This document shows, one piece after another, positions 1 through 29,836 of a stretch of 35,012 nt of DNA; the first letter of the stretch is position 1; each line of letters opens with the position of its first letter. Position numbers and translations under genes: made by a program. The stretch spans positions 1-35,012 of the IMG/VR virus record IMGVR_UViG_3300033571_029303; one strand, written 5' to 3'. Under the pieces are notes generated by a model. The model saw only the letters and a list, made by a program, of their open reading frames with translations. It searched no databases and was not told where the DNA came from. The stretch comes from a virus.

Positions 1-441
1 CATGATGTTGATATGATTCCAATCGAAGCAGATTACAGCTGGGCGGCTAATCCCATTCATATGGCTACGGAATGTAGCCAATTTGAATATAAATTACCAT
101 ACGATAGTTATTTCGGTGGTGTTACAATGTTTAACCGAGATGACTTTAGAAAAACTAACGGGTACAATAACGAATATTGGGGATGGGGTGCTGAAGACGA
201 CGATTTGCGAGCAAGGTGTACTGTGGTTGGATTGGAATGCACCAGAAGACGTGGTAGATACATGTCTCTTCAGCATGGTCGAATAATAAAACAAGAAGAG
301 TATTCTAAAAATATTGAAGAGTTGAAAAGCTTTACACCAGAAAAAATGCAATCAAATGGATTGAGTTCTATCGGATATTCTTTGATAGAACGAAGCCAGC
401 TTAGAAATCAAAATGGTTTTAAATACAAAGTGAGTATATAA
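1..441 (+). CDS. beta-1,4-galactosyltransferase-like glycosyltransferase, C-terminal part (5' end outside window)
   Basis: The frame is open from base 1, so the gene begins upstream. The first visible residues are HDVDMIP, matching the metal-binding DVD motif of GT7 beta-1,4-galactosyltransferases. About 60 residues later comes WGWGAEDDD, the family's acceptor/catalytic-site signature, inside a stretch (FGGVTMF...NGYNNEYWGWG) typical of the Glyco_transf_7C domain. It should transfer a hexose from a UDP-sugar, probably galactose or an N-acetylhexosamine, in the cytoplasm. The stop TAA shares a base with the next ATG (TAATG), so the two genes are probably translationally coupled. Family assignment is strong; donor and acceptor are unknown. 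Confidence 0.85.
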   Translation, partial: HDVDMIPIEADYSWAANPIHMATECSQFEYKLPYDSYFGGVTMFNRDDFRKTNGYNNEYWGWGAEDDDLRARCTVVGLECTRRRGRYMSLQHGRIIKQEEYSKNIEELKSFTPEKMQSNGLSSIGYSLIERSQLRNQNGFKYKVSI

Positions 442-1211
442 TGGGCGTAATTTTAGGCGCATCTAAGAATTTTGACTTTAATACTCTTTATCCTTGGGTA
501 AGCACTGCTTTAGCGACTAAAAACAAAGTAGTGATGATATTGATGGAAAATAATCGAACTTTAGAAACACAGTTAAAAGGTCTTGGAGTTGAAGTTGTTG
601 TAAATGAAATATCAAATAATGTTGTGCCACATCACGAACGATTTCGTATTCAATACGAATACCTGATGAATTGCGATGAAGAATATGCTGTAGTAACCGA
701 TAGTCGCGATGTTTTGTTTCAGAGTGATCCTGTAGAATGGATGAAAAACAATCTCGGCACTCATAGCATTGTTTGTTCCAGTGAAGGTTTGAAGTACAAA
801 GATGAATTTTGGGGAAATCGGAATCTCCAAGAGGGATTTCCCTATCTTTATGAAACACACAAAAACAACACTATTATGAATGTTGGAGTTCTTGGTGGTA
901 AAACCCAAGCAATTGCAGAATTATCTTTGATGATATACAGTATGTGCAAACACAATCCAGCTAGAGTTTCTGATCAGTCTTCATTCAATGTCCTTTGTGG
1001 TATGAAATCGCTTGACTCGTTTATACTCAAATCTAGATCCGATGCTGGATGGGCACTGCATGCTGGAACATGGTGTAAAACCAACAATTTTCATTTGTTT
1101 GAACCGAATCTCCTGGAACCTCAACCAACATTTGAAGGTAAAGTCGCCAAGACGCATGATGGCAAAACATATGCTATCTTGCATCAATACGATAGAATAG
1201 CAGGATATTGA
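441..1211 (+). CDS. putative glycosyltransferase, GT-A-like
   Basis: A 256-residue protein. An acidic motif VVTDSRDVLFQ (about residues 84-94) looks like the DxD-type nucleotide-sugar site of GT-A enzymes. It is followed by NVGVLGG (147-153) and DQSSFN (178-183), an arrangement seen in GT8-like and related enzymes. No signal peptide or membrane segment is visible. It sits between other transferase genes, starting on the last base of the upstream stop codon. Likely role: adding one sugar to the phage-encoded glycan. The exact family is not recognised, so substrate is left open. Confidence 0.65.
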   Translation: MGVILGASKNFDFNTLYPWVSTALATKNKVVMILMENNRTLETQLKGLGVEVVVNEISNNVVPHHERFRIQYEYLMNCDEEYAVVTDSRDVLFQSDPVEWMKNNLGTHSIVCSSEGLKYKDEFWGNRNLQEGFPYLYETHKNNTIMNVGVLGGKTQAIAELSLMIYSMCKHNPARVSDQSSFNVLCGMKSLDSFILKSRSDAGWALHAGTWCKTNNFHLFEPNLLEPQPTFEGKVAKTHDGKTYAILHQYDRIAGY

Positions 1212-1212
1212 T

Positions 1213-1899
1213 ATGAAAATTGCTTTATGTTTGTCTGGACAACCAAGAGGATTGGTAAAAGCATACGAATATGTACAAAGAAACGTTTTATGTTGTAACG
1301 ATGTTGATGTTTTTTGTCATGTATGGAACGAAGAAGAAAAAGTAAAATCATTATACAAACCCAAAAAAATTTTAGCAGAATCTCAAAATAAGATAAAATT
1401 AAACAAAGAATATAAAACAAGAGATAATATAAATCATCCAGCTATCAATACTTTTTGCTTTTTTTATTCTCTATATATGGCCAATAGTTTAAGAGAAGAA
1501 TACGAAAAAGAAAATAACATCAAATACGATATTGTAATAAGATCTAGATATGATTTTGCTATTGCTAGATGTCTGAATTTTTCTGAATACGATACAGATA
1601 AAATTTGGACTCCTCTGATAAAAATACCAATGCCTTCTACTTTTGTTTGCACAGATCAGTTTGCTTTTTCTTCCTCTCAAAACATGTCAGATTATTCTAA
1701 AGTTTATGAAAAAATAGAATATTATTATGATTCTGGTATCTTGATAAACGGCGAAGATTTGCTCGCTGCCCACATCAAAAAAATTAATTTAATCAACAAA
1801 ATTTCTTATGTTGATATGTGGGATCCTTTTTATGGTGGTAAATATAATTATGGTCCGCATTCTCTTGTGCGAGATGATATGGAGCAATGGGTTAAATGA
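1213..1899 (+). CDS. glycan-cluster protein, glycosyltransferase-like, function unknown
   Basis: A 228-residue protein beginning MKIALCLSGQPRG. This opening and the later VIRSRYDFAIAR (about residues 108-119) recur in uncharacterised proteins of polysaccharide and viral glycan loci. RSRYD may take the place of a GT-A acidic motif, but this is inference. It starts one base after the upstream stop and its own stop overlaps the next start by 4 bases (ATGA), so it lies within one transcription unit. Codon use is very A+T rich like its neighbours. It could be a glycosyltransferase or an accessory protein; no catalytic assignment can be made. Confidence 0.6.
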   Translation: MKIALCLSGQPRGLVKAYEYVQRNVLCCNDVDVFCHVWNEEEKVKSLYKPKKILAESQNKIKLNKEYKTRDNINHPAINTFCFFYSLYMANSLREEYEKENNIKYDIVIRSRYDFAIARCLNFSEYDTDKIWTPLIKIPMPSTFVCTDQFAFSSSQNMSDYSKVYEKIEYYYDSGILINGEDLLAAHIKKINLINKISYVDMWDPFYGGKYNYGPHSLVRDDMEQWVK

Positions 1900-2708
1900 A
1901 AGTTGTATGTAAACGCCAGCCAAATTGGATAAACTTTGATTTACATTTTCCATGTGAAGTTCATCTTCAATATCCAGAGTTTCCTTTTAATAAAAATGAT
2001 GGCATTTTTAAAGTTTATTGCGATTCATTTGAGCCATCTTCATCTTGCGCAAATCATCTTCACATAGAGAAGATACTTCCACTTTATAATTTAATTTTAA
2101 CGAAAAATCCATTTATATTGTCTAAATATAAAAACTCTAGATTATTTTATTTTGGATCATCTTTCATATATCCTCATTTACCTTGCAAAAAAACTTATGG
2201 TGTTTCTTTTGTGACTACAAAACCGAGCTGGCATTTACCCGGTTATGACTTGAGGTATGAGTTGTGGAGTAGGCAGAACGAAATAAAAATACCAAAGGTT
2301 TTTTACAGTTCCAACAGAATGCCAATAGATACAAACAGACTTCTTCCTGGAAATGGATCTAATTTAGATAAAATGATAATGTTTGAAAGTATGTTTCATG
2401 TTGCAATAGAGAATACGAAAGAAATTAATTATTTTAGTGAAAAAATCAATGATTGCTTTTGGACAAAAACTGTTCCTTTATATTGGGGTCATAAAGAAAC
2501 AGTTAATTCTATTTTTGATGAAAAAGGAATAATACATTTTGATTCTGTAGATGAATTGATAAAAATATGTAATTCTTTAACAGAGAACGATTATTATAAT
2601 CGAAACTCTTTTATGGAAAAAAATAAAGTTATATCTGAAATTTATGCTAAAGATATGAACGAAAGAATTAAATTTGAAATATTAAAATTTAAAGAAGGAA
2701 AAATATGA
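1896..2708 (+). CDS. GT10-like (alpha-1,3/1,4-fucosyltransferase family) glycosyltransferase
   Basis: A 270-residue protein. The C-terminal half carries the GT10 signature: FHVAIEN (167-173), then SEKINDCFW (181-189) and VPLYWG (193-198), corresponding to the family's F-x-x-x-x-E-N ... EK-x-x-x ... P-x-Y-x-G GDP-fucose-binding strip. GT10 enzymes transfer L-fucose or a related 6-deoxy sugar from a GDP-sugar. The N-terminal half is divergent, as is usual in this family. Both ends overlap neighbours by 4 bases. The donor may be fucose-like, but no GDP-fucose synthesis genes are visible in the window. Confidence 0.75.
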   Translation: MKVVCKRQPNWINFDLHFPCEVHLQYPEFPFNKNDGIFKVYCDSFEPSSSCANHLHIEKILPLYNLILTKNPFILSKYKNSRLFYFGSSFIYPHLPCKKTYGVSFVTTKPSWHLPGYDLRYELWSRQNEIKIPKVFYSSNRMPIDTNRLLPGNGSNLDKMIMFESMFHVAIENTKEINYFSEKINDCFWTKTVPLYWGHKETVNSIFDEKGIIHFDSVDELIKICNSLTENDYYNRNSFMEKNKVISEIYAKDMNERIKFEILKFKEGKI

Positions 2709-3400
2709 AACTTTTGGTATGTGGACATCTTAGAAATTTTTCAAATAATTATTATATTTTTGTAGAAAAATATTTTTCCAAATTAAATGCTGATAGTAAA
2801 CATCTTGTTACTTATAAAAATCTCGGTTGGTGGAGTGCAAAAAATTCTGTTAATGACGGAGACGTAATTGATGCAAATAAAATTATTAATTTTAATTTTT
2901 TTGATACTATTAATATTTTACAAAAAGAAATAGTGCAAAATATAGCGAAAGAGTATATCAAGCCTGTATCGATTGTGCGTCCTTATTTAAGAACAGAAAA
3001 TATGTCTAGTCAGTTTGCAATGAGGTACCTTTCTTGCAAAATTTTAAATTCTTTTGTTGATTCAAACGAAACAGTAGTTTTAACTCGCCCCGACATTTTA
3101 CCTTCTCCTAATATGGTAAATACTATAGTTGACATGATCAAAGATGTAGATAACGATAAATCTTTAGTGTGTTATGTTGGCGGTACTTCTGTTGAGCAAG
3201 GAGATCCTTTCTTTGTTGGTACTGTTTCTAATTTAAAACATATAATGTCATCATCAGCTGTTAATAATAATGAGTATATGGATGCACATGCGTTTTTAGA
3301 TGGAGCAATAATAGGAACCGATATCAAATTGAAAAGATATCCAGAACTTGGATGGGTATTATGTAATTCGCCAAATATGACAACTTATAGAGAAATTTAA
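2705..3400 (+). CDS. glycan-cluster protein of unknown function
   Basis: A 231-residue protein opening MKLLVCGHLRNF, a pattern that parallels the CLSGQPR opening of the gene at 1213. A central VVLTRPDILPSPNM (about residues 122-135) resembles the R-x-D segment of that protein, so the two may be distant paralogues of a GT-A-like fold. No membrane segment or signal peptide is seen. It overlaps the GT10 gene by 4 bases and is followed 4 bases later by the next gene. Position argues for glycan assembly; the reaction is unknown. Confidence 0.55.
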   Translation: MKLLVCGHLRNFSNNYYIFVEKYFSKLNADSKHLVTYKNLGWWSAKNSVNDGDVIDANKIINFNFFDTINILQKEIVQNIAKEYIKPVSIVRPYLRTENMSSQFAMRYLSCKILNSFVDSNETVVLTRPDILPSPNMVNTIVDMIKDVDNDKSLVCYVGGTSVEQGDPFFVGTVSNLKHIMSSSAVNNNEYMDAHAFLDGAIIGTDIKLKRYPELGWVLCNSPNMTTYREI

Positions 3401-3404
3401 TAAA

Positions 3405-4076
3405 ATGAATGTATTATTTTTTCAAACATCGATAATAAATGTTTCTAAAGATCCATTAAATTATAATCCTATCAGGTCCATGTACGATCCCGAGACACGC
3501 CTGCAACAAACAATTAATGGTGTAAACAGCGTTAGACTAAAATATCCTTCGGCTAAAATTTTCGTATGCGAAGCGAGTAAGCTTGACGATTACCAAGAAA
3601 AAAAATTAAAAGAATGTTCGGACAATCTTATTTTACTGCACGATGTGAATGAAGTTAAAGATACAAGAAATCATTCAAATAAAAGCTTAGCCGAAGCAAC
3701 TCAAGTTAAGCACATACTTAGTAATCCGGAAATACAAAATTATGATTTTGTATTTAAAATGTCGGGAAGATACTGGCTTTCAGATAGCTTCAATCCATCA
3801 TATATTGAGAATAAAAACAAAGCAAAAGTTATAGTAAGAAAAAGATTCTCAAATCCATATCGTCACTGGTTCAGTACTTCTTTGTATTGTGTAGGTAAAT
3901 ATGCTATTCCTATGATGATTAATCAGCTTGATAAAGCCATAGAGACACTAAAATACAACAATACAGATATTGAAAGCACTTTGTTTCGAGGTATCGAGAA
4001 TACATATTTGATAGAAGTAGATTCTATAGGATGCAGTGGAAGATTGGCTGTAAACGGCGAAATTGTTGATCATTAA
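3405..4076 (+). CDS. glycan-cluster protein, possible glycosyltransferase
   Basis: A 223-residue protein. A segment DFVFKMSGRYWLSDSFN (about residues 115-131) and a later ENTYLIEVDSIG resemble uncharacterised LPS/capsule locus proteins in which K-x-x-G-R-Y-W stands near the presumed sugar-nucleotide site. It starts 4 bases after the preceding stop, with no convincing Shine-Dalgarno, so translation is probably re-initiated. It is as A+T rich as its neighbours. Function is inferred only from context. Confidence 0.5.
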   Translation: MNVLFFQTSIINVSKDPLNYNPIRSMYDPETRLQQTINGVNSVRLKYPSAKIFVCEASKLDDYQEKKLKECSDNLILLHDVNEVKDTRNHSNKSLAEATQVKHILSNPEIQNYDFVFKMSGRYWLSDSFNPSYIENKNKAKVIVRKRFSNPYRHWFSTSLYCVGKYAIPMMINQLDKAIETLKYNNTDIESTLFRGIENTYLIEVDSIGCSGRLAVNGEIVDH

Positions 4077-4089
4077 ATAAGAAGTTAAT

Positions 4090-4692
4090 ATGAGCGAAAG
4101 AATACAAATATTAAATAGTCTTCTAGAAAAGCGCACAAATCCATCCTATCTTGAAATAGGATATGGAGATGGTACCTGCTTTGAAAGTATAACATGTGTG
4201 GATAAAACATGTGTAGACCCAAGTCCCTTTTGTGATAAAAATTTTGGAAAATCTGGAACTTGCATAAAAAAATATAGCGATTCTTTTTTTGAATCTAATC
4301 AAAAAATGTTTGATGTGATCTTTATAGATGGAGATCATTCTTATGATCAAGTGTGTAAAGATTTTTCAAATTGTTTAAAGTTCCTTAAAAAAGGTGGTTG
4401 TATAGTTTTACATGACTGTAATCCTCCAGATAAAAACCACACAAATCAAAATTTATGTGGAGATGGTGGATATAGAATGTTCACCGAGTTTTATCAAAAA
4501 AATACAACTTTTACATGGATGACTTCTTTTGAAGATTATGGTGTTTGTGTTGTTACAACGGATAATTCTAGACAGGCGGAGACTTTGAATAAAAACGGCG
4601 AAGATTTATATGATATATTTTCTAATTCTAGAATTAATATTTTGAATTTAAAACCAGCTTCAGAAATTATTAAAATAATAAATTTAATTTGA
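4090..4692 (+). CDS. class I SAM-dependent methyltransferase (Methyltransf_24 type)
   Basis: A 200-residue protein with a Rossmann methyltransferase core. Motif I is EIGYGDG (22-28). The segment DVIFIDGDHSYDQV (75-88), followed by LKKGGCIVLHDCNP (about 99-112), is characteristic of small-molecule/sugar methyltransferases of this family, where the D and H residues bind metal. In this cluster it probably O-methylates a sugar or glycan end, a cap that can stop chain growth. A GAAG about 6 bases before the ATG can serve as ribosome site. The C-terminal 60 residues are less typical. Confidence 0.8.
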   Translation: MSERIQILNSLLEKRTNPSYLEIGYGDGTCFESITCVDKTCVDPSPFCDKNFGKSGTCIKKYSDSFFESNQKMFDVIFIDGDHSYDQVCKDFSNCLKFLKKGGCIVLHDCNPPDKNHTNQNLCGDGGYRMFTEFYQKNTTFTWMTSFEDYGVCVVTTDNSRQAETLNKNGEDLYDIFSNSRINILNLKPASEIIKIINLI

Positions 4693-4706
4693 AACAAGGT
4701 ATTTTT

Positions 4707-5612
4707 ATGAGCACTATTCGAGCTTTTATGTTTCATGATGTTAGAGATGCATCTAATACCAAATATGCTTCTCGATATTCTTTAAAATCTTATTTAACAC
4801 CAGAAATTTTTAAAAGACAAATTGAATTTATATCTAGCAGATATAAAGTAATCGATAGTTCTGAAATATTATCTATTAATTTGGATGGGGATGAGAATTA
4901 TGCTGTTTTAACTTTTGATGATGGCTTGAAAGACCATCTAAATGTAGCAAAATATCTGAAAGATAACTCATTACCAGCTACTTTTTTTGTGCCAGTGGAG
5001 CCAGTATTTCATAATACCGTTATACACGCCCATAAAATACAATTTATCTTATCTGTAACAAATGAAAAAGAACTTGTAAAAGAAATTTTAAATAATTTTA
5101 GTGACGAAAGAGAAGTTATTTGGAATCAATACAGCCAGACGATATGGAAAGATAATTGGTGGACATTAGAAATGATATTCATCACCAATTTTTTAAGAAA
5201 GCATAACACAGAAAAATTTAATTGTTATGATTATTGTGATGTTCTTTTTAACAAGTATGTGGTATCCAAAGATATAGAATATTTTAAAAATTTTTATTTG
5301 AATGAGCAAGATCTAAGTTATATTTACGATAATGGATTTACCATCGGAGGGCATGGTTATTCTTCTAACAATCTTTTGTTGGAAAAAGAATGGATAAAAG
5401 ACATAAAGAAGTGCGAACCAATAAAATCATACACAGATTTTTTATGTTTTTCGTATCCTCACGGTGGTTATTCGGATGAAATTAAAAAAGAATTGAAGCA
5501 AAATGGATATGAGTTCGCTTATACAGTCAATCCTTTTACAATAACGGAATTAGACAAATTTGATAGTATGGAATTTCCAAGATATGATGCCCCACAGAGA
5601 ATATTAGTATGA
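4707..5612 (+). CDS. polysaccharide deacetylase-like protein (NodB/CE4 fold)
   Basis: A 301-residue protein from ATG 4707. An upstream TTG at 4689 is also open, but the ATG has AAGG at a good distance and gives the usual length. CE4 motif 1 is TFDDG (69-73), followed by LPATFFVP (89-96). A second motif reads IGGHGYSSNNL where active enzymes normally have H-x-x-x-H, so the second zinc histidine seems replaced. FSYPHGGYS (near residue 250) matches the later RxPyG-like motif. It would remove N-acetyl groups, possibly making the free amine that the next enzyme formylates. The altered motif leaves activity uncertain. Confidence 0.75.
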   Translation: MSTIRAFMFHDVRDASNTKYASRYSLKSYLTPEIFKRQIEFISSRYKVIDSSEILSINLDGDENYAVLTFDDGLKDHLNVAKYLKDNSLPATFFVPVEPVFHNTVIHAHKIQFILSVTNEKELVKEILNNFSDEREVIWNQYSQTIWKDNWWTLEMIFITNFLRKHNTEKFNCYDYCDVLFNKYVVSKDIEYFKNFYLNEQDLSYIYDNGFTIGGHGYSSNNLLLEKEWIKDIKKCEPIKSYTDFLCFSYPHGGYSDEIKKELKQNGYEFAYTVNPFTITELDKFDSMEFPRYDAPQRILV

Positions 5613-6259
5613 AAATATTATATTATGGTTACAGAGAATGGGCTTATAAAATATTTAATAATTTAGATAAAAAAAATATTTATTTAATTTCGAATGATGA
5701 CTACAGTATTATAGATTTTATAAAACCTAATTTAATATTTTTTATAGGATGGAGCAACATAATTCCATCTGAAATTGTTAAAAAATATAAGTGTGTATGT
5801 TTACATCCTTCTCCTTTGCCGAAATATCGTGGTGGAAGCCCAATACAAAATCAGATATTAAATAATGAAACCGAGAGTGCTGTAAGTTTATTTTTGATGG
5901 ATGACGGTATAGACACAGGAGATATATTGTTTCAAAAGAAAATTAGCTTAGACGGAACTTTGAATTGTATATTCGATAGAATAGTGGAAACAGGAACCGA
6001 AGGAATAAAGTTTATACTGTCTAATGTTACAAATTTGGATTCCATATCGAAAAAACAATGTGAGAATGACGCTACTTTTTTTAAAAGAAGAAAACCACAA
6101 CAAAGCGAAATAACAATAGAAGAAATACAAAATAGTGATGCATTATTTCTTCATAACAAGATTAGATCATTAGCGAATCCGTATCCGAATGCCTATATAA
6201 AATGTAAAGGTGGTCAGAAACTCTATATTTTGGACTCTCGGATAGATTATGAAAAATGA
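5609..6259 (+). CDS. sugar/methionyl-tRNA formyltransferase-family protein
   Basis: A 216-residue protein with the Formyl_trans_N fold. The diagnostic strip is CLHPSPLPKYRGGSPIQ (64-80), and the catalytic aspartate lies in MDDGIDTGDIL (D102). Sugar N-formyltransferases and Fmt use 10-formyl-tetrahydrofolate and an Asn-x-His...Asp triad. Here the position before LH is Cys64 rather than Asn, while His66 and Asp102 are kept. It lacks the C-terminal tRNA-recognition domain of Fmt, so a sugar amine is the likelier substrate. It overlaps the deacetylase by 4 bases and the SDR gene by 11. Confidence 0.8.
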   Translation: MKILYYGYREWAYKIFNNLDKKNIYLISNDDYSIIDFIKPNLIFFIGWSNIIPSEIVKKYKCVCLHPSPLPKYRGGSPIQNQILNNETESAVSLFLMDDGIDTGDILFQKKISLDGTLNCIFDRIVETGTEGIKFILSNVTNLDSISKKQCENDATFFKRRKPQQSEITIEEIQNSDALFLHNKIRSLANPYPNAYIKCKGGQKLYILDSRIDYEK

Positions 6260-7178
6260 AAAAATTTTTATTACAGGTGGAGCTGGTTACTTAGGTCAGA
6301 ATCTCTGTAAATATTTGTCTCAAGATAACGAAATAATAGTTTACTCCAGAGACGAATCAAAACATTATTACATGCAAAAGCAGTTTCCTAATGTAAGATT
6401 TATAATCGGAGATATACGTAATAAAGATTATTTAATAAGAAAATCTAAAGGATGTACAATTGGAATATTTGCGGCATCTTTAAAACAGATAGATGCCTGT
6501 ACCAATAATTACGAAGAAGCTTCTAAAATCATAATAGATGGTGCTATAAATTCAAGACTTGCAGCCGAAGAAAATGGATTTAAGTCGGCAAGTTTTATAT
6601 CGTCAGACAAAAGTCGAGCAGCAACCACAATATATGGTGCCATGAAATATGTTGCAGGAGAGTCTTTTATAGTTGGCGATTCTAACTCTAATTTAACCAC
6701 TTTAATTTATGGAAATGTTGCAAATTCAACCGGGTCAATTATTCCATTAATATGGAATTGTATCAAAAACAATAGATGTTTGACTCTTTATGAGCCTTCA
6801 ATGACTCGTTTTTGGATAGATATCAAAGATGCAGTGGATTTAATAGTCAAGGCTCAAAAATATAAAGGTTGTAATATAATACCAAAAATAAAATCTTTTT
6901 GTATAGAAGATTTGTGTAAAATTTATAGCGAAAAATTTGGATTGAAATATACAGTCGGCACTCCTCGTGTCGGAGAAAAAATTCATGAAATAATGGCTTC
7001 TAATGAGGAAATTCGAAGATTGCAATATGTTTCTTCTGATAATTTATACGTTCTGTATCCAGACAGACAAATCAATAATTTAAGTTTTCCAAATAACGAA
7101 TATTCTTCAAAAGATTTTTGTATGGATATAAACGAATTGTTCCATGTACTAGAAGATAAGGATTTTTATAAATTATGA
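6249..7178 (+). CDS. NDP-sugar dehydratase/epimerase, extended SDR (CapD/PseB/WbjB-like)
   Basis: A 309-residue protein with an N-terminal NAD(P) site TGGAGYLG (9-16), acidic GDIRNKD (54-60), and ISSDKSRAATTIYGAMK (117-133). The last stretch carries the Tyr129-x-x-x-Lys133 pair and the SxDKA-like strip typical of UDP-GlcNAc 4,6-dehydratases (PseB, CapE/WbjB, FlaA1). It probably converts a UDP-HexNAc to a 4-keto-6-deoxy intermediate. The following gene is an RmlD/CapF-like reductase, so the pair fits early steps toward an N-acetyl-fucosamine or related 6-deoxy amino sugar. The precise product is not decidable. Confidence 0.82.
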   Translation: MKNEKIFITGGAGYLGQNLCKYLSQDNEIIVYSRDESKHYYMQKQFPNVRFIIGDIRNKDYLIRKSKGCTIGIFAASLKQIDACTNNYEEASKIIIDGAINSRLAAEENGFKSASFISSDKSRAATTIYGAMKYVAGESFIVGDSNSNLTTLIYGNVANSTGSIIPLIWNCIKNNRCLTLYEPSMTRFWIDIKDAVDLIVKAQKYKGCNIIPKIKSFCIEDLCKIYSEKFGLKYTVGTPRVGEKIHEIMASNEEIRRLQYVSSDNLYVLYPDRQINNLSFPNNEYSSKDFCMDINELFHVLEDKDFYKL

Positions 7179-7978
7179 AATGTGCAATATTCGGAAATAA
7201 TGGAATGCTCGGTTCGTATGCTCGATCTTATTTACAAGACTTTTATGAAATATCGTCTTTTGGTAGGAAAGATATAGATATATTTTCTTGTAGTAAAAAA
7301 GATTTTTTTGATTTTGCCGACAAAAAATTAAAAAATATCGATGTGATAATAAACTGTGCAGGTGTCATAAAGCAAAGAAATGTTTCCGATGAAGAAATGA
7401 TAATTGTAAATTCAATATTTCCGCATTGGTTGGCTGAAATTAAAAAGAATACTAATTGTAATGTAATACATTTTACTACTGACTGTGTTTATAGTGGTAT
7501 TAAAGGTAATTACTCGGAAGACGACAAACACGATTGCGCTGATGTTTATGGAAAATCCAAATCAATAGGTGAAAATCAAAACTTGACTATTATTAGAACT
7601 TCTATTATTGGAGAAGAGCAAAGAAATAAATTAAGTTTATTAGAATGGGTAAAATCTAATCAAAATAAAACAGTAAATGGTTTTACAAATCATTTCTGGA
7701 ACGGAGTGACGTGTTTAGAATTGATGAAGTATGTACATAGTATTATAAACTACAATCTTTATTGGAATGGTGTTCGCAACGTTTTCAGTCCAAATGTTGT
7801 ATCTAAATATGATTTAGTTAATATGATATCTGAAGTTTATGAATTAAACGTTAGTGTTAATAAAAACAGTCATATTGATTTTTGTGACAGGTCTCTTTCT
7901 TCAATTCACAGTAAAAAACCCATAGCAAAATCATTAATCAATCAATTAATTGAAATTAAAAATTTTAAATTAAGTTAA
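7175..7978 (+). CDS. sugar-nucleotide reductase, RmlD-like SDR
   Basis: A 267-residue protein starting MKCAIFGNNGMLGS, an RmlD-type GxxGxxG dinucleotide site. It has VIINCAG (57-63), HFTTDCVYSG (99-108) and the catalytic YGKSK (125-129). RmlD/CapF-type enzymes reduce 4-keto groups of 6-deoxy NDP-sugars using NAD(P)H. The gene overlaps the dehydratase gene by 4 bases, which supports a two-step route. A CapF-like C-terminal cupin is absent here, though a cupin is fused to the next protein. The order is typical of O-antigen and capsule clusters. Confidence 0.82.
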   Translation: MKCAIFGNNGMLGSYARSYLQDFYEISSFGRKDIDIFSCSKKDFFDFADKKLKNIDVIINCAGVIKQRNVSDEEMIIVNSIFPHWLAEIKKNTNCNVIHFTTDCVYSGIKGNYSEDDKHDCADVYGKSKSIGENQNLTIIRTSIIGEEQRNKLSLLEWVKSNQNKTVNGFTNHFWNGVTCLELMKYVHSIINYNLYWNGVRNVFSPNVVSKYDLVNMISEVYELNVSVNKNSHIDFCDRSLSSIHSKKPIAKSLINQLIEIKNFKLS

Positions 7979-7988
7979 TAGGTTTATT

Positions 7989-8945
7989 ATGAAAGATATA
8001 AAATTAGTAATGTTTGATCTCGATGGTGTTTTGGTTGATGCTTGTGAACTTCATTACGAAGCTCTAAACAAAGCTTTAACTGCAAACGGCAAATCGTCGA
8101 TAAGCCGAGAAGACCACGAAAGCAAATATAACGGTCTTCCTACCAAAGTAAAGCTGAATCTTCTTGGATATGAAGATGCTTTGATAAAAAAGATCGACAG
8201 CGACAAGCAAAATTATACTTTAGAACTGATTGAAAAATGTTGCACCAAAAGACAAGAAAAAATTGACTTGATTGATTATTTAAAAAAAAGAGGCATAGTT
8301 GTCGGTTGTGTGACCAATTCAATAAGAAAAACCACGCAAAAAATGCTAATTCAGACCGGCATTTACGATAAAATAGATTTTTGCATAACAAACGAAGATG
8401 TTGATTTTGCTAAACCGGATCCAGAAGGTTATGTAAAGGGTATATCTTTTTACAACAATCTTATCGACTCGATTGCCAATCAAGTAATAATAGTTGAAGA
8501 CAGTCCTAAAGGATTGCAAGCAGCTCGAGCCACTGGTGCTTGTGTTATTCAAGTAAAGGATCCAAATGACGTTCATGTTGGATTGTTCAACTCGATTGTT
8601 GCAAAAGATGTTGAAAAGTCTCAAGTAAGTATGATGCGTGGTGGGTGGTTTGTTGGCGCATTTGAACCTACATTAGAAAACACCAAAGATTTTGAAGTTG
8701 GTTACAGAAGTTACAAAAAAGGCGAAGATCATGATATGCATTATCATGTTGTAGCCAAAGAAATAAATTGTGTCGCTAGAGGATGTGTAGAAATTGAAGG
8801 AGAATTGTATAAAGAGGGCGACATTTTCATTGTTCATCCTTTCAAAGCAATTAAACCGATATTTCATGAAGACAGTTCTATAGTTTGCGTTAAGATACCA
8901 TCATGTCCCAACGATAAATATGTCTTAAAGGACATTACACTATGA
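7989..8945 (+). CDS. HAD-superfamily phosphatase fused to a C-terminal cupin-like domain
   Basis: A 318-residue protein. The HAD part (about 1-210) has motif I MFDLDGVLVD (8-17), a motif II-like VTNS, KPDPEGY and the metal-binding VEDSPKG. It fits the beta-phosphoglucomutase/sugar-phosphatase subgroup. The C-terminal 100 residues carry a histidine-bearing beta-strand pattern (HDMHYHVVAKE ... GCVEIEGELYKEGDIFIVHPF) typical of a small cupin. The likely role is dephosphorylation or isomerisation of a sugar phosphate; the cupin may be an epimerase-like or sensory domain. It overlaps the nucleotidyltransferase by 4 bases. The combination is unusual, but both halves are clear. Confidence 0.8.
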   Translation: MKDIKLVMFDLDGVLVDACELHYEALNKALTANGKSSISREDHESKYNGLPTKVKLNLLGYEDALIKKIDSDKQNYTLELIEKCCTKRQEKIDLIDYLKKRGIVVGCVTNSIRKTTQKMLIQTGIYDKIDFCITNEDVDFAKPDPEGYVKGISFYNNLIDSIANQVIIVEDSPKGLQAARATGACVIQVKDPNDVHVGLFNSIVAKDVEKSQVSMMRGGWFVGAFEPTLENTKDFEVGYRSYKKGEDHDMHYHVVAKEINCVARGCVEIEGELYKEGDIFIVHPFKAIKPIFHEDSSIVCVKIPSCPNDKYVLKDITL

Positions 8946-9655
8946 AGATATTGATACCGATGGCTGGAGAAGGATCCAGGTTTGCCAAAGAGGGATATAC
9001 GTTCCCCAAACCATTAATCGATGTTAATGGTAAACCTATGATACAAAATGTTGTGGAAAATATCAGCTTTGATGCTGATTATATTTTTCTGGTAAGAAAA
9101 AGTCATTTAGACAAATATCCTGGTCTTGGTTCTACCCTAGAAAGAATCACCAAAGGAAAAACAACAATAGTGACTGTTGATAGTTTGACCGAAGGCGCAG
9201 CGTGTACAGCTTTGCTTGCTAAAGATTACATAAACAACGACGATGATCTGCTTATCGCCAATTCTGATCAAATAATCGAATACAGCAAAGAAAATTTTGT
9301 AATTATCAAAGACAAGATAAGCGTTGACGGTATAGTGTTTGCGTTTCGTTCAACTCATCCTAAATGGTCGTTTGTAAAGTTAAACAAAGAAAATTATATA
9401 ACTGAAGTTGCTGAAAAAAAACCAATTTCGGATGTTGCTACTTGTGGAATATATTGGTACAAGCGTGGTAAAGACTTTGTATCGGCTGCCGAGCAAATGA
9501 TTGCCAAAAACATACGGGTGAACAATGAATTTTATGTAGCCCCCGTCTACAACGAAATGATATCCGATGGTAAATTCATACTACCATTTTTTGTTGATAA
9601 AATGCATGGTATCGGAACACCGGAAGACTTGACAAATTATTTAAAAATAATATGA
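8942..9655 (+). CDS. sugar-phosphate nucleotidyltransferase
   Basis: A 237-residue protein with the NTP-transferase signature IPMAGEGSRFAKEGYTFPKPL (about 5-25), i.e. G-x-G-S/T-R-x ... K-P. NSDQII near residue 105 supplies the catalytic/metal aspartate, and the C-terminal part carries a second acidic site near MHGIGTPEDL. It would activate a sugar 1-phosphate (or glycerol-like phosphate) to its NDP form for the transferases upstream. It overlaps the HAD gene and the GDPD-like gene by 4 bases each. HAD, nucleotidyltransferase and GDPD-like genes in a row suggest supply of an unusual activated building block. Confidence 0.85.
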   Translation: MKILIPMAGEGSRFAKEGYTFPKPLIDVNGKPMIQNVVENISFDADYIFLVRKSHLDKYPGLGSTLERITKGKTTIVTVDSLTEGAACTALLAKDYINNDDDLLIANSDQIIEYSKENFVIIKDKISVDGIVFAFRSTHPKWSFVKLNKENYITEVAEKKPISDVATCGIYWYKRGKDFVSAAEQMIAKNIRVNNEFYVAPVYNEMISDGKFILPFFVDKMHGIGTPEDLTNYLKII

Positions 9656-12777: not shown

Positions 12778-13725
12778 ATGTTACAGCGATTGGTTGAAAA
12801 ACTCGAAACTTTTGGTGTGGTGCGTGTTGACGGAAAACGCATAAAGGTTTGCATACCTTCAAAATGTCGCAACGACCGCGTGCAGGTTTTGCAACAAGTA
12901 AGCGACAATTTTCAAGATTTTTCTGCTGTGTTGATGAACGATATGCCCAGCTACAGCAGCATTGGGTATGTGCAAATACAAGATTTTCGAATAAGCGTCA
13001 AATCGCTACCGCAACAAAGCAGCATGTCGCCGGGTGTACCCAACGAGCATGTTCTAGCACAAAAAATTAATAAATATATAAAAGAATCGGGAACGATAAA
13101 TTTAATATTTTTGAGCGATAAAAATAGAATTTGCTATGAAAATGTTATGAATTGTCGTTTAACCGAAAATCGTAAATCAAGAAAAGGGCGCAACAAAGCC
13201 GATATGATCGTCGAAACACAACAAAACAACTATGCAGTTTCGATCAAACAGGACGATGCCGAGCGTTGGGAGTCGGCAGACACGTCGCACGGTACAGTAG
13301 CCCTTCAGCAGCTTCAAAAAGCTTTGGACGAACAAAAAACCCGCTTGCTTCCGGTTCTCGATAAAAACGGAGCACCGATGGTTCGCAAAGACGGAAGAAC
13401 CGTGATGCGGTTGGAAAACGAGCTTTTTTGGTGCATGGAAGAAAACCAAGCCAAAAAGACGATTTTTGGCGATGATGTTTGCAACGGTGGAGCGGTGGTT
13501 TTCAACACGTTCAACGATTCTCATTTTTCGTACAACAGCACCGATTCTAGTTTGACGGTTGCATGCGACCGAGTGTACACAACAGACGGCTCGATCGATG
13601 CACAAGATCATCCGTACTGGATAATCAGAAACGACGTAACCAGAAACTGTCGAAAGCTTGGAATACCCGGACTTCGCATCGAATCGGTATTCAAATCACG
13701 TATAAAATACGGAGTCGAAGTTTAA
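12778..13725 (+). CDS. putative PD-(D/E)XK-like nuclease-fold protein, first gene of the structural block
   Basis: A 315-residue protein from ATG 12778; an ATG at 12754 inside the hairpin's 5' arm would add 8 residues. A central segment GRNKADMIVET...YAVSIKQD has the D...(V/I)-x-(V/I)-K layout of PD-(D/E)XK restriction-like nucleases, preceded by basic RKSRKGRNK. The rest shows no known motif. A short AT-rich patch (about 13060-13150) interrupts the otherwise G+C-richer gene. Its stop TAA shares a base with the next ATG, which encodes the ATP-grasp fusion. Nuclease activity is an inference from one motif; it could equally be a virion protein. Confidence 0.5.
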   Translation: MLQRLVEKLETFGVVRVDGKRIKVCIPSKCRNDRVQVLQQVSDNFQDFSAVLMNDMPSYSSIGYVQIQDFRISVKSLPQQSSMSPGVPNEHVLAQKINKYIKESGTINLIFLSDKNRICYENVMNCRLTENRKSRKGRNKADMIVETQQNNYAVSIKQDDAERWESADTSHGTVALQQLQKALDEQKTRLLPVLDKNGAPMVRKDGRTVMRLENELFWCMEENQAKKTIFGDDVCNGGAVVFNTFNDSHFSYNSTDSSLTVACDRVYTTDGSIDAQDHPYWIIRNDVTRNCRKLGIPGLRIESVFKSRIKYGVEV

Positions 13726-16055
13726 TGCCAAACAACAATCACGTTACTGTTATTGTTTTGACATCTTCCGGAAAAGACGGTAGCGACACCGTAAACAAAA
13801 TACAACAGTCTTGCAAAAAGTTTGGCAAAAAGTTTTACATGGTTTCCACTCAGTATGCGTACATTGATGATCGTGCGTCAACTTCTGAAAAAATAGTGAT
13901 ACACAATCACGACGGTAGCGGCAAAAGCATCACACTCGATCCGCGTGATGTGGTTTGTTTTGCGCGTGGAGGCGTAACCAACACTCAAATCGGAATGGCG
14001 ATTCTTACGATTTTCGAGAACACCGGGATGTTTGTGATCAACGAACGTCGCCCGATGGAACTTTGTGCCAACAAGCTTTACAGTGCCATACAACTCGACA
14101 GTTACGATATACCAACACCAAAAACGGCGTTTGTTGCCAATTTGAGTTCGCTCGACAACGCACTCGAACAAATCGGCAATCAATTTCCGGTGATTGTAAA
14201 AACACTCACGGGTGCCGAAGGAGTTGGTGTTTCGATAGTTGACAGCTACGAAAGCTTGAAATCGGTTCTGCAAACTCTTTGGAAATACGATGCGGAACTT
14301 TTGATTCAAGAATACTTGGAAATCAAAAACGATGTTCGTGTGTTGGTTTTGGATGGCAAAGTTGTTGCAGCAGCGATGCGCGGCAAAGCACCCAGAGACT
14401 TTCGCACCAACCTTGCGCAAGGTGCCGAAGGTGGTCCGTATAAAATCAGCGACCAAGAGCGAGAAATAGCCGAGCGTGCGGCAGAGGTTTTTGGAACGTA
14501 TTATGTGGGTGTGGATATGATTACCAGCAAAGGAAAACCATATGTGATCGAACTCAACGCTTCACCCGGCAGCGGAAACGTGTATCGCAGCTATTTTCCC
14601 GACAGCGAAGGCAAAAACATCACGGGTCAAAAATTGATCGACAGCGTTGTCAAGCATGCAATAAACCGAGAAAATTGGAATTTCAATCACCGTGAAGTTG
14701 GTTTGATCGAACCGATCGACATCGATTCTATTGGAAAATACAAAGCCAAACTGGATACCGGCAACGAAAGTTACAATGTGTTGGGTGCAGAAAACATCGA
14801 AGAATACAACGGAACTGTTGCGTTTACGGTGCAAGGTAAAAAATATGAAAAACCCGTTGTGTCGCATGTGAGAATACGAACCAACAACATAAATGTGGAT
14901 CGTCGCCCGGTGGTGGAATTTGACGTAGAATTCAGAAATCGTAAATTCAAAAACATACGATTCAGTTTGGTGCCCAGAAGATTCAACAAATATCCTGTTT
15001 TGATTGGCAACAAATTTATGAATTTGGCCAAGATATCGGTAAACGTCAATACGATTCAAACGTTACCCGAAAGCAACAAAAACAATCAATATATTGAAAA
15101 AATAAATACATTAGGAAGTTTTGTGCAAATCGACGAAATGCGCGATATTCTTGCAGAAAAACTTCAAACGTGCAAAAAAGAAGATGAAGTAGTTTTGATC
15201 GAAGAGGCTTTGGGTCATATCAATGTTGCAAAATACAATTTAAAAAACCAGCAACAACAAGCTTACGATAGGAACACAATCATGTATGCCGACAAAAAGT
15301 TTTTAAAATTCTTAGAAAACTTTAACAATGAAAATTCTGAAAAACAAAATTTAAACGAAGAGGTTGTGTCCGAAGCCACACGCGCCAGCAGCATTTCGCA
15401 AGCGAGAAAAGCACTCGCCAAAATATCCAAAAAGCGCGAAGCGTTGCGTAAAGGCAAAAAGCAACGCAAAAGCCGTTCGGTTGGTGTAAAAATCGTAAAA
15501 GGCAAGCCCAAAGAAAAAGACTATCAACGCCTCGATCGAGCAATTCAACGCAAGCGTGCCAAGTCGGATCGTGAAAAGGGTATCGTAAGAACGAAAAAGC
15601 GTGAAAAGATGGGTCCTGCGCACGTTGGTGCGATCGAAGGAGCAAGCATTCCAGCAAGTCGCGAATATTCGCAATCGCGACGTTCGCAGCTCGAACGCTT
15701 GTATTCCAGAAAGAAATACAAAGAAAAGGCTCCAACCGAATACAACCCAGAAATGGCATCGATTCGCTTTTGGAACTATCGCACCCCCACAAACCCAAGA
15801 CGCAGCGATGCAGGCAATCCAATGCAAAGCGGTGCGCGTGCGAGTGTGGTTGACGGTGGCATCAAGCAGCGTTTTGGACGCTACTACGGCAACAAAAAGG
15901 GCAAAACCAAGAGCCGCACCGGTATGACCGGCGAAGAAATTCGTTCGGTTGTTCGTGAAAAGATTCGTCGTGGCGAATGGCCATCTCCGGGTGGTATGGC
16001 TGGTTTGCGCAAAGGCTGGGAAAAGACTTGGATGAAGAAAAAGAAAAAGGACTGA
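13725..16055 (+). CDS. RimK-type ATP-grasp ligase / retropepsin-like (RimB-type) peptidase / basic tail fusion
   Basis: A 776-residue protein. Residues 1-300 form a RimK-like ATP-grasp ligase: PVIVKTLTGAEGVGVS (about 155-170), LIQEYLEIKNDVRVLVLDGK, and the metal site VIELNASPGSGN (274-285). Residues about 325-440 match the RimK-associated ATP-dependent zinc protease/retropepsin-like family: IDIDSIGKYKAKLDTGNES with Asp344-Thr-Gly, then VDRRPVVEF and FNKYPVLIGNKFM. Residues 530-776 are very Lys/Arg rich. RimK adds glutamates to protein C-termini and RimB-type proteins trim them, so writer and eraser may be joined here. The site LNEEVVSEA before the basic tail resembles a prohead-protease site. 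Confidence 0.85.
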   Translation: MPNNNHVTVIVLTSSGKDGSDTVNKIQQSCKKFGKKFYMVSTQYAYIDDRASTSEKIVIHNHDGSGKSITLDPRDVVCFARGGVTNTQIGMAILTIFENTGMFVINERRPMELCANKLYSAIQLDSYDIPTPKTAFVANLSSLDNALEQIGNQFPVIVKTLTGAEGVGVSIVDSYESLKSVLQTLWKYDAELLIQEYLEIKNDVRVLVLDGKVVAAAMRGKAPRDFRTNLAQGAEGGPYKISDQEREIAERAAEVFGTYYVGVDMITSKGKPYVIELNASPGSGNVYRSYFPDSEGKNITGQKLIDSVVKHAINRENWNFNHREVGLIEPIDIDSIGKYKAKLDTGNESYNVLGAENIEEYNGTVAFTVQGKKYEKPVVSHVRIRTNNINVDRRPVVEFDVEFRNRKFKNIRFSLVPRRFNKYPVLIGNKFMNLAKISVNVNTIQTLPESNKNNQYIEKINTLGSFVQIDEMRDILAEKLQTCKKEDEVVLIEEALGHINVAKYNLKNQQQQAYDRNTIMYADKKFLKFLENFNNENSEKQNLNEEVVSEATRASSISQARKALAKISKKREALRKGKKQRKSRSVGVKIVKGKPKEKDYQRLDRAIQRKRAKSDREKGIVRTKKREKMGPAHVGAIEGASIPASREYSQSRRSQLERLYSRKKYKEKAPTEYNPEMASIRFWNYRTPTNPRRSDAGNPMQSGARASVVDGGIKQRFGRYYGNKKGKTKSRTGMTGEEIRSVVREKIRRGEWPSPGGMAGLRKGWEKTWMKKKKKD

Positions 16056-25839: not shown

Positions 25840-26025
25840 TCAGATTTGGTTGGACGCAAAACCAAGACGTTTCTTGAGATCTTTTAAGATTTCTTCCACT
25901 CGTTCTTTTTCCACGCCAATGTGTTCCCAGTGCTTGTACGATTCTGGGTCGGCTGTGACCAATGCCACGTAGATCAAGCGAATTTCTTGATCCGTAAATT
26001 TCCAAGTTTGTTTTTTACTGCCCAT
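25840..26025 (-). CDS. small hypothetical protein (61 aa)
   Basis: A 61-residue protein with GGAG ahead of ATG 26025. It is charged and helical: FTDQEIRLIYVALVTADPE, then VEKERVEEILKDLKKRLG. No cysteine, signal or recognised motif. It overlaps the 3' end of the upstream methyltransferase gene by 11 bases, as is usual for coupled phage genes. Confidence 0.5.
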   Translation of the reverse strand: MGSKKQTWKFTDQEIRLIYVALVTADPESYKHWEHIGVEKERVEEILKDLKKRLGFASNQI

Positions 26026-26542
26026 GCTTGCTCCGCAATTTAACGTAACGGTCCCACAAAACGATGCTGCCTGCGCTGCTAAGGTTCATGCTGGTTCCAG
26101 TTGCGCTAGGAAGCTTTATGAGATGTCGGCAGCTGCGACGTGCTTGATGGCTCAATCCCACATCCTCGCTGCCAAACAGATACACAGCACGATCCGGATG
26201 CTCGAATGTTTCGAGATTTTCCGATTTGCTGTCGAGTTCCACGCCCACCAACACGCTGCAAAGCGGAAGATTTTTGCGCAAACTCATGAAATCTTCAAAA
26301 TGCCATGTGGGAAGAATGCGATGGCTGTCGCACGGATCCCAGTGGTTGTTTTTGTCGTATCTAGCACCAACGGTCGCCAGAAAGTCTGCATTGCCGAGCG
26401 TGGCTGCGGTGCGAAACAACACGCCGATGTTGCCGTGCAGTTTGGGTGCTTCCACCGCAACACCGCAGTAGTTTTCTAGCGAACGATTGCGGTACACTTT
26501 GGTGTGTTCGCAACCAAACATTCGTCGAAAGATGCTGATCAT
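26015..26542 (-). CDS. SpoU/TrmH-type RNA 2'-O-methyltransferase (SPOUT)
   Basis: A 175-residue protein with the three SPOUT motifs in order: NIGVLFRTAATLG (about 38-50), VYLFGSEDVGLS (about 119-130) and IKLPSATGTSMNLSSAGSIVLWDR (about 141-164). The last has the family's knot segment I-x-x-P...S-x-N-x-S-x-A. SpoU-class enzymes methylate ribose 2'-OH in tRNA or rRNA using SAM and work as dimers. Length fits a minimal catalytic core without an RNA-binding extension, as in TrmL. Its gene begins 7 bases after tRNA-Val in transcription order, so a phage or host tRNA is a natural target. Confidence 0.85.
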   Translation of the reverse strand: MISIFRRMFGCEHTKVYRNRSLENYCGVAVEAPKLHGNIGVLFRTAATLGNADFLATVGARYDKNNHWDPCDSHRILPTWHFEDFMSLRKNLPLCSVLVGVELDSKSENLETFEHPDRAVYLFGSEDVGLSHQARRSCRHLIKLPSATGTSMNLSSAGSIVLWDRYVKLRSKHGQ

Positions 26543-28767: not shown

Positions 28768-29082
28768 TTAGTTGTTTTTGTTGTCAACTTCTTCGTTTAT
28801 TTTTTTGTATTCGTCAAAAGTCATGCCAGTCAAAAATGATGGCAAGTACTTTTGATCCTTTTCCGACGAACGAGCACCAAGAACATTGTATTCGATAAAT
28901 TCTTCGGCATCGTCTTCGCTCATGCCGTCGCGTTCCACCAGAATACGCACGCACTTGGCATAGTCGTAGGTCGCAAATTGTATGCCGTTTCGCTCGCCGA
29001 TTCCAATAAAAGCATCCTCAAAACCGTCTGCAAAAAGAATTGCCATGGGTTCTCCCGGATTAGAATTGTTCGAGGAATTCAT
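28768..29082 (-). CDS. conserved phage hypothetical protein (104 aa)
   Basis: A 104-residue protein from ATG 29082 with GGAGA ahead. The strip AILFADGFEDAFIGIGERNG, TYDYAKCVRILVERDGMSEDDAEEF and YNVLGARS (about 14-70) is widely shared by small phage proteins encoded in early or auxiliary regions; their role is not known. Residues after 75 are charged. It is the first gene after the 145-nt tRNA-like element in transcription order. Confidence 0.65.
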   Translation of the reverse strand: MNSSNNSNPGEPMAILFADGFEDAFIGIGERNGIQFATYDYAKCVRILVERDGMSEDDAEEFIEYNVLGARSSEKDQKYLPSFLTGMTFDEYKKINEEVDNKNN

Positions 29083-29110: not shown

Positions 29111-29255
29111 TCAAGCATGAGGGATTCGAACCCTCTGTTGCACCGCAGGTGTCATCGGCTCGCTCGCGGAGTTTTATGACAAGCCCTTTTGGGGTGCCCC
29201 GCTGCTTTGTGCTTTCGCCGTCCCGCGTTACTCGTTCCCACCGAGTCGATGCTTG
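29111..29255 (-). tRNA. tRNA-like gene with a long internal insertion (145 nt)
   Basis: On the minus strand CAAGCAT (29255-29249) pairs 7 of 7 with ATGCTTG (29118-29112). Next to the latter is a perfect T arm GAGGG-TTCGAAT-CCCTC (29135-29119). A D-arm-like hairpin ACTCG...CGAGT (29246-29230) follows the acceptor. The 94 nt between D and T arms is far longer than any class II tRNA. It includes possible stems CGCGG/CCGCG (29227-29223 with 29169-29165), TGTCAT/ATGACA (29181-29176 with 29155-29150) and CACC/GGTG (29151-29148 with 29144-29141). No anticodon can be assigned. Intron, tRNA relic or new RNA class all possible. Confidence 0.6.
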
Positions 29256-29262
29256 CGTTTGT

Positions 29263-29433
29263 TTATCCAAACAATGTTTCAGCATTGTCGCCACCCTTTT
29301 GGGTGATGATGGGTCGCTTGCTTTCGGGAACCCACTTGGGATCTTTGGGTGCGCAACAACTACTCACGGTGATGGGATGAGTGGTTCCGCATTTCGGACA
29401 TTCCCAAGAGGGTATTGAATTGTTTTGATTCAT
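29263..29433 (-). CDS. small zinc-ribbon protein (56 aa)
   Basis: A 56-residue protein from ATG 29433 with GAGAA ahead. WECPKCGTTHPITVSSCC has a C-x-x-C zinc knuckle followed 9-10 residues later by a second Cys pair, a compact zinc ribbon. The rest (PKWVPESKRPIITQKGG) is basic. Such mini-ribbons in phages often bind nucleic acids or host RNA polymerase, but no specific role is shown. It ends 7 bases before the tRNA-like element. Confidence 0.6.
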   Translation of the reverse strand: MNQNNSIPSWECPKCGTTHPITVSSCCAPKDPKWVPESKRPIITQKGGDNAETLFG

Positions 29434-29440
29434 TTGTTTC

Positions 29441-29836
29441 TCACTTAATAAAAACCGGTTGACCTTCGCGTTCGCGCAACTTTTGCCAAGCAAAAGGAAT
29501 CAGATGAATAAACATGTATCCACCATCTTCCAACAATCGTTGCATTCGTTTGGCACCTGGATCGTTCAAACTATGAATAACCACTGGCGTTTCTCGATGT
29601 TGTGGCATGTTTTTGCTCATGTATGCCGCAACATATTCTCCGTCTGCATTGATCTTTAAAACATCTGCATCTTCTTGCAAATCATGATCGAGCATGATCA
29701 AATCATACAAATGGTTGTTGAGAAACTTTAGTGCTACGTTGGCAGTGTACGCGTAGTCCACTTGAAAGTGTTCCGAGTTTGTTTTCATATCACGATGTCT
29801 AAATGGACTGTCGTCAAGAAACAATATTTTAGCCAT
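29441..29836 (-). CDS. cyclic-phosphate-processing receiver-like (cREC) domain protein
   Basis: A 131-residue protein from ATG 29836; the frame is open 15 codons upstream through the previous mini-gene. KILFLDDSPFRHR (4-16) and DLIMLDHDLQED (45-56) are the acidic-pocket and acceptor strips of receiver folds, in the version with LDHDL seen in stand-alone cREC proteins. VVIHSLNDPGAKRM follows near residue 90. cREC domains are thought to process cyclic phosphates or signal without a histidine kinase. Phage copies are uncharacterised. Confidence 0.65.
   Translation of the reverse strand: MAKILFLDDSPFRHRDMKTNSEHFQVDYAYTANVALKFLNNHLYDLIMLDHDLQEDADVLKINADGEYVAAYMSKNMPQHRETPVVIHSLNDPGAKRMQRLLEDGGYMFIHLIPFAWQKLREREGQPVFIK

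Follow-up and report, generated by a model that had tools for sequence, protein, structure and literature searches.

RNAs that resemble tRNA and have no anticodon are rare; those whose roles are known, tmRNA and Y RNA, hold central places in the rescue of translation and in RNA quality control. In the bacterial Y RNA YrlA, the tRNA module is joined via its anticodon-stem side, and its acceptor is closed. Phage T4 encodes RNAC ("species 1 RNA", rnaC) and RNAD beside its tRNAs, and the role of both has been reported as unknown (PMC3014915, PMC9697503). We aligned RNAC from eight phages, each of a different genus. The alignment shows a tRNA-like acceptor stem with compensated changes and a T arm, together with two large hairpins, and no D hairpin; in Yersinia phage fHe-Yen9-01, the acceptor stem is fully paired. 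Most of RNAC was found in 698 phage records, and the regions inspected in RB69, VR7, and fHe-Yen9-01 have no annotated tRNA genes next to it. Rfam gave no above-threshold match for RNAC. A match of the RNAC covariance model in one related contig (L228) lies inside an ORF and was rejected.

A tRNA-like frame around a 94-nt stretch

The window analysed here is the stretch of 35,012 nt that makes up positions 1 to 35,012 of IMG/VR record IMGVR_UViG_3300033571_029303. It comes from a T4-like phage whose gp41-type helicase is about 50–56% identical to cyanophage and Melnitz-phage proteins. The two closest relatives (helicase 93% and 81%) are fragments that stop about 17 kb before the element described here. 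This element is a tRNA-like RNA gene of 145 nt that fills most of a 180-nt intergenic gap between two co-directional genes (Table 1). The coordinates and the length given in a first-pass annotation, made from the sequence alone, are correct, and the strand is minus.

The acceptor stem, CAAGCAT/ATGCTTG, has 7 of 7 Watson–Crick pairs. The discriminator is A at position 29111, and the element has no encoded CCA, like the other tRNAs of this phage. The distance from the D arm to the T arm is exactly 94 nt. On re-measuring, we recovered the perfect 7-bp acceptor, the D-arm-like hairpin, the T arm, and the 94-nt stretch of the first-pass annotation, which had also seen no clear anticodon arm; indeed, the insert contains no 5-bp stem with a 7-nt loop.

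ARAGORN with default settings called five ordinary tRNAs in the window and Rfam found four; the element was not among them, and in Rfam, it stayed unmatched even at E ≤ 10, with no match to the tRNA and tmRNA models. Thus, the ARAGORN and covariance-model searches that the first-pass annotation had suggested gave no default tRNA call. A strict descriptor of the tRNA frame (7 Watson–Crick acceptor pairs, 5 Watson–Crick T-stem pairs, a D hairpin of 5 Watson–Crick pairs with a GG-containing loop, and TTCNA as the T loop) had 0 matches when the whole window was dinucleotide-shuffled 150 times. When 2.3 Mb of related phage DNA was scanned with a looser descriptor, the few other matches were insert-bearing tRNAs, joins between adjacent tRNA genes, part of a tmRNA, and weak matches due to chance. 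What looked like a 279-nt tRNA with an insert in L228 proved to be neighbouring tRNA genes.

The folding energy of the element is no better than that of shuffles (z = −0.85), and 216 of 300 shuffles of the 94-nt insert fold equally well. Helices were first listed from the window sequence by itself, when the homolog was not yet known; the list contained Pa (29–34:107–112), Pb (36–39:97–100), Pc (54–59:85–90), and TGTCA/TGACA, together with rival helices. The "at least three candidate stems" reported at first reading are present, but their support comes only from the homolog and not from free-energy folding. When the window sequence was folded without constraints, the resulting minimum-energy structure was rejected, with five of its pairs broken in the homolog.

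Single tRNA genes for Val, Tyr, and Gln lie just downstream on the same strand, one per intergenic gap, and none of them encodes CCA. A gene for a SpoU-family RNA 2′-O-methyltransferase (window 26015–26542, minus strand) adjoins the tRNA-Val gene; this is possibly a phage tRNA modification enzyme. Two genes upstream of the element and on the same strand, at 29441–29836 (minus strand), there is a cREC receiver-like domain (PF20274), which one comparative study has associated, in the setting of phage conflicts, with the processing of cyclic phosphates and NAD/ADP-ribose (PMC7824862). Elsewhere, the window encodes an 830-aa protein with a RimK-like ATP-grasp domain and a putative zinc-protease domain (13563–16055, plus strand). 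The sugar and nucleotide-sugar genes at 441–9655 (plus strand; glycosyltransferase, epimerase, deacetylase, formyltransferase, and HAD) suggest phage-encoded glycan modification.

Table 1. Features of the tRNA-like element, its flanking genes, and T4 rnaC; positions are those of the window unless a contig is named.
Feature	Position	Strand	Remarks
Whole tRNA-like element	29111..29255	−	Homolog L277:7703-7846 (−), 89% identity over 140 nt, flanks non-homologous
5′ acceptor strand CAAGCAT	29249..29255	−	Pairs 1:144 and 2:143 both compensated in homolog
D-like hairpin ACTCG-GTGGGAA-CGAGT, 5 bp, 7-nt loop with GG	29230..29246	−	Identical in homolog
Pa 5′ strand CGCGGG, at anticodon-stem position (proposed)	29222..29227	−	Pairs with 29144-29149; two consistent one-sided changes
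Pb 5′ strand CGGC (proposed)	29217..29220	−	Predicted to pair with GCCG at 29156-29159; invariant
GAAAGCACAAAGCA, 14-nt unpaired stretch	29203..29216	−	Identical in both copies
Pc 5′ strand GCGGGG (proposed)	29197..29202	−	Double change at 59:85 and two G-U/G-C swaps
Pd mini-hairpin CCC-4 nt-GGG (proposed)	29184..29193	−	Stem invariant
TGTCA, putative pseudoknot 5′ strand	29177..29181	−	Invariant while neighbouring bases change; predicted pairing
Pc 3′ strand CTCCGC (proposed)	29166..29171	−	Double change at 59:85 and two G-U/G-C swaps
Pb 3′ strand GCCG (proposed)	29156..29159	−	Invariant; predicted pairing
TGACA, putative pseudoknot 3′ strand	29150..29154	−	Invariant; predicted pairing
Pa 3′ strand CCTGCG (proposed)	29144..29149	−	Two consistent one-sided changes
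GTGCAACA, 8 nt, variable-region equivalent	29136..29143	−	Invariant in both copies
T arm GAGGG-TTCGAAT-CCCTC, consensus	29119..29135	−	Double change at 121:137 in homolog, G-C to A-U
3′ acceptor strand ATGCTTG	29112..29118	−	Pairs with 29249-29255
Upstream CDS, 56 aa, Cys-rich, CPKC and CC motifs	29263..29433	−	Ends 7 nt before element
Downstream CDS, 104 aa, phrog_13182, function unknown	28768..29082	−	ATG at 29082, 28 nt after element
T4 rnaC, 139 nt	L231:1409-1547	−	Compared with L232-L238

A homolog in a second T4-like phage

IMG/VR was scanned with two independent patterns, one for the D arm and one for the 3′ half. Each matched a single contig, and it was the same one, IMGVR_UViG_3300010885_016343 (L240, record G038), in which the element copy is at the L277 position in Table 1. 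The match ends at the element boundaries and includes 19 substitutions and one indel. The homolog likewise has no ARAGORN-default or Rfam tRNA match. Record G038 is a contractile-tailed T4-like myophage with a T4-type portal, terminase, and sheath. Its contig has a GC content of 53%, as against 40% in the window, and the best protein matches between the two contigs are only about 29–65% identical. No other DNA similarity was found in the flanks of the element, which are unrelated, and the contigs have no shared protein neighbour that would point to one function. By this comparison, conservation is far higher in the RNA than in the surrounding genomes, through strong constraint, recent transfer, or both.

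The indel is a 1-nt deletion adjoining Pd. Because of this deletion and the pattern of changes, a shared protein frame is excluded, and a coding reading of the element was rejected, as no reading frame is common to both copies.

A covariance model built from both copies gives each of them 176–185 bits and everything else ≤17 bits; this model relates to two sequences, whose contigs are fragments. A search of 95 related phage records with the same model yielded no member besides the known homolog. BLAST of the element against phages and plasmids gave only T-arm or short chance matches. Over 85k bacterial and archaeal genomes, a T-arm-plus-acceptor pattern gave no match, and a core-motif pattern gave 34 matches, none in a tRNA-like context.

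Covariation and proposed structure

Twelve of the 19 substitutions are at paired positions, and none of the 41 proposed pairs is broken. There are four double compensatory changes: two in the acceptor stem (1:144, C-G to A-U, and 2:143, A-U to G-C), one in the T stem (121:137, G-C to A-U), and one in the internal helix Pc (59:85, G-C to U-A). At four more pairs (31:110, 32:109, 54:90, and 58:86), a one-sided change keeps the pairing, and the remaining substitutions are located in loops and linkers. GAAAGCACAAAGCA, TGTCA, ATGACACCTGCGGTGCAACA, and the D arm are unchanged between the copies. The D arm, Pb, Pd, and the putative pseudoknot give no covariation information because they are invariant.

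When the same substitutions were placed at random, the probability of no broken pair was 1.5 × 10−5 and that of at least four compensated pairs was 1.4 × 10−4, values that are somewhat flattering because the helices were finally chosen with knowledge of both sequences. If the partners are slid by 1–3 columns, all of the double changes vanish. A shuffle of the 3′ letters, which is a weak control for a two-row alignment, equals the observed covariation in 37 of 500 trials. Since only two members are known, the covariation rests on a single comparison; within it, the acceptor and T stems are shown to be under base-pairing selection. The first-pass annotation had proposed looking for covariation in relatives, and the homolog indeed has compensatory changes, which affect the acceptor and T stems as well as one internal helix. 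It had also considered that homologous phages might have an intact normal tRNA, with the insert as a random insertion, and we found the opposite. Because a distantly related virus holds a copy whose mutations keep the fold, we regard the element as a structured RNA and not a broken tRNA.

The predicted structure is a cloverleaf with an arm of about 84 nt (Pa, Pb, Pc, and Pd) in place of the anticodon arm, partly supported by covariation. In the proposed layout, the 5′ strand of the 7-bp acceptor is followed by 2 nt, the D hairpin of 5 bp with a 7-nt loop, 2 nt, the 6-bp Pa, an A bulge, and the 4-bp Pb. After Pb come the 14-nt single strand, the 6-bp Pc, the 3-bp mini-hairpin Pd, and TGTCA, with TGACA beyond Pb, and the chain then passes through the 8-nt variable region and the T arm to the acceptor. 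TGTCA would pair with TGACA, giving a compact pseudoknotted domain. In the homolog, Pd reads CCC-GAAA-GGG, its loop turned into a GNRA tetraloop. The GG of the D loop and the TTC of the T loop could form the usual elbow contacts. However, the element does not reproduce the canonical tRNA core, as both copies have C at position 8 and lack A14.

Some other candidates were set aside. A fluoride-riboswitch match (10.9 bits, E = 4) was dropped, being absent from the homolog. A hammerhead-like reading of GAAA, GTC, and CCGATGA was dropped by inspection, with C at core position 4 and the stems unpaired. HDV-like and group I strand orders, compared by eye, did not fit or lacked domains.

tRNA and tmRNA genes of related phages

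Two related phages have a tRNA-Asn(GTT) with a 48-nt insert in the anticodon loop (L152:10051-10170, minus strand, in G015, and L167:2275-2394, plus strand, in G014). The insert ends in a T-arm- and acceptor-like part (CGAGTTCGATTCTCG...TCTCC, with GGAGA upstream), making a mini tRNA inside a tRNA; the same tRNA-Asn is uninterrupted in Bacillus phage Moonbeam. In G020, the anticodon loop of tRNA-Lys(TTT) is split by a very short group I intron of about 183 nt (L157:11506-11761, plus strand), with an Rfam score of 37.7 bits, under the gathering score. The sister phage G019 has tRNA-Lys without the intron (L035:897-969). True tmRNA genes are present in G020 (L036:4785-5122, plus strand) and six other related contigs. 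The L036 tmRNA, with a tag ending in NRRLALAA, was missed by ARAGORN with default settings, and the tmRNA of G014 and G015 contains additional sequence near its tag region.

Alternative explanations

The element might be tRNA-Val(GAC) with a novel intron of 66–67 nt on the 5′ side of the anticodon loop, the TGTCA of the intron pairing with UGACA until excision. ARAGORN in intron mode makes this same fit at the same place in both copies (67-nt intron, and 66-nt in the homolog). TGACA would then be positions 33–37 of the anticodon loop, U33 and A37 are conserved in it, and related phages have the anticodon-loop inserts in tRNA-Lys and tRNA-Asn described above. However, with the ARAGORN threshold at 100%, both copies score below it in intron mode, and the 95% level is reached by 22% of insert shuffles. 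C8 and the missing A14 also speak against a functional tRNA-Val, as does the discriminator, which varies (A or T), with a first pair that is C-G or A-U; to our knowledge, such a discriminator and first pair are unlike those of any known tRNA-Val. There is no sign of a group I core, as neither copy matches RF00028 at E ≤ 10, whereas the G020 tRNA-Lys intron does. The 5′ splice site lacks a U, and known self-splicing introns are, as far as we know, far longer than 67 nt. Furthermore, the Rfam tRNA model, which does not match the element, still gives 60 bits to the G015 tRNA-Asn despite its comparable insert. An intron-bearing tRNA is thus unlikely. The element could decode only if an intron of 66–67 nt were first removed.

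A drastically reduced tmRNA, with the tag-coding region lost and the tRNA-like domain and one pseudoknot kept, would account for the combination of these two parts, which is the plan of tmRNA. True tmRNAs are found (above the Rfam cut-off) in 7 of 37 contigs with phrog_13182 homologs, and in G019 and G020, they are close upstream of that gene. We consider this origin quite unlikely: the Rfam tmRNA model matches neither copy at E ≤ 10, the G3-U70 alanylation pair is absent (A3-U70 in both copies), the element has a D stem and tmRNA has none, and a tag ORF is not conserved, as the 1-nt deletion makes the frames differ between the copies. A divergent homolog of T4 RNAC would be of the same length class (139 and 145 nt), in a T4-like phage in both cases. 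RNAC too has an acceptor stem and a consensus T arm, lacks an anticodon arm, lies near tRNA genes, and has been retained as a stand-alone gene in several genera. Yet the covariance model of the eight RNAC sequences matched the element only at the T arm, with 6.3 bits, the reverse search with the element model reached 12.7 bits at best, and the central architecture of RNAC is different, with no D hairpin; descent from RNAC is very improbable. A small selfish or mobile RNA or DNA element, whose tRNA-like ends serve its own spread between phages, would explain 89% identity in genomes with divergent proteins and GC content and unrelated flanks, and the high identity could reflect a recent transfer of this kind. 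However, no protein is encoded, no flanking repeats were seen by eye at the boundaries, and the fold is under selection, with strong constraint explaining the identity equally well; we think such an element distinctly doubtful. A decaying tRNA gene, or a chance match without an RNA product, would be in keeping with the absence of a canonical anticodon arm and of U8 and A14. It is scarcely credible, being refuted by the homolog: there is compensatory evolution across two phages, conservation is confined to the element, and the result of 0 in 150 shuffles argues against chance. Among the three options offered in the first-pass annotation, a new tRNA-mimicking RNA gains support from the compensatory changes and the unrelated context, a tRNA with a small intron is weak, and a decayed tRNA falls away.

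Proposed function and comparison with known systems

We suggest that the element is probably a non-coding RNA of T4-like phages that mimics tRNA, stands alone, and acts in trans. It is a previously uncatalogued RNA. Like each of the three single tRNA genes of the same strand, it fits closely between two genes, and it would be co-transcribed with the flanking genes. The 5′ and 3′ tRNA maturation enzymes that serve the neighbouring single tRNA genes would trim its ends, and CCA would be added post-transcriptionally. The elbow and the acceptor/T-arm half would then be offered as a tRNA to a tRNA-handling protein, and the arm without an anticodon may block, retarget, or titrate this partner. Candidate partners are a processing or modification enzyme, EF-Tu or the ribosome, and a tRNA-attacking defence factor. 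Host proteins that handle or attack tRNA are natural candidates because phages of this group devote genes to tRNAs, tmRNAs, and RNA-related enzymes. The RNA would act in the manner of T4 RNAC, without homology to it. More tentatively, we put forward that this is a new family of phage tRNA mimics, in which a pseudoknotted effector domain replaces the anticodon arm and captures or inhibits a host protein that handles or attacks tRNA. Now that other T4-like phages are seen to have a tRNA-like RNA that is unrelated to RNAC and whose fold is supported by covariation, it becomes testable whether a phage uses a fake tRNA to bind a translation or defence factor of the host. tRNA scanners pass over genes of this type in phage genomes.

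The element shares the acceptor, the D-like and T arms, the gene placement, and the lack of an encoded CCA with canonical and intron-bearing phage tRNAs. It differs from them in having no anticodon arm, C8, no A14, a variable discriminator, and the 94-nt stretch. Like tmRNA (RF00023), it has a tRNA-like domain joined to a domain with a predicted pseudoknot, but tmRNA is about 340–425 nt long and the element 145 nt. Like bacterial Y RNA (YrlA, RF02553), it would be a non-coding RNA with a tRNA-like module; unlike in YrlA, its ends form an open acceptor stem. The YrlA model matched neither copy, and no TROVE/Ro gene was found in the related contigs searched, which are fragments, so this absence is weak. 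T4 RNAC is the nearest analogue among known RNAs; it has a long hairpin and a 10-bp hairpin where the element has the Pa-Pb-Pc arm. On the evidence of their sequences, the element and RNAC are RNAs of the same kind but of different families. If our proposal is right, the element and T4 RNAC together would point to a functionally uncharacterised class of tRNA-like RNAs that recurs among T4-like phages.
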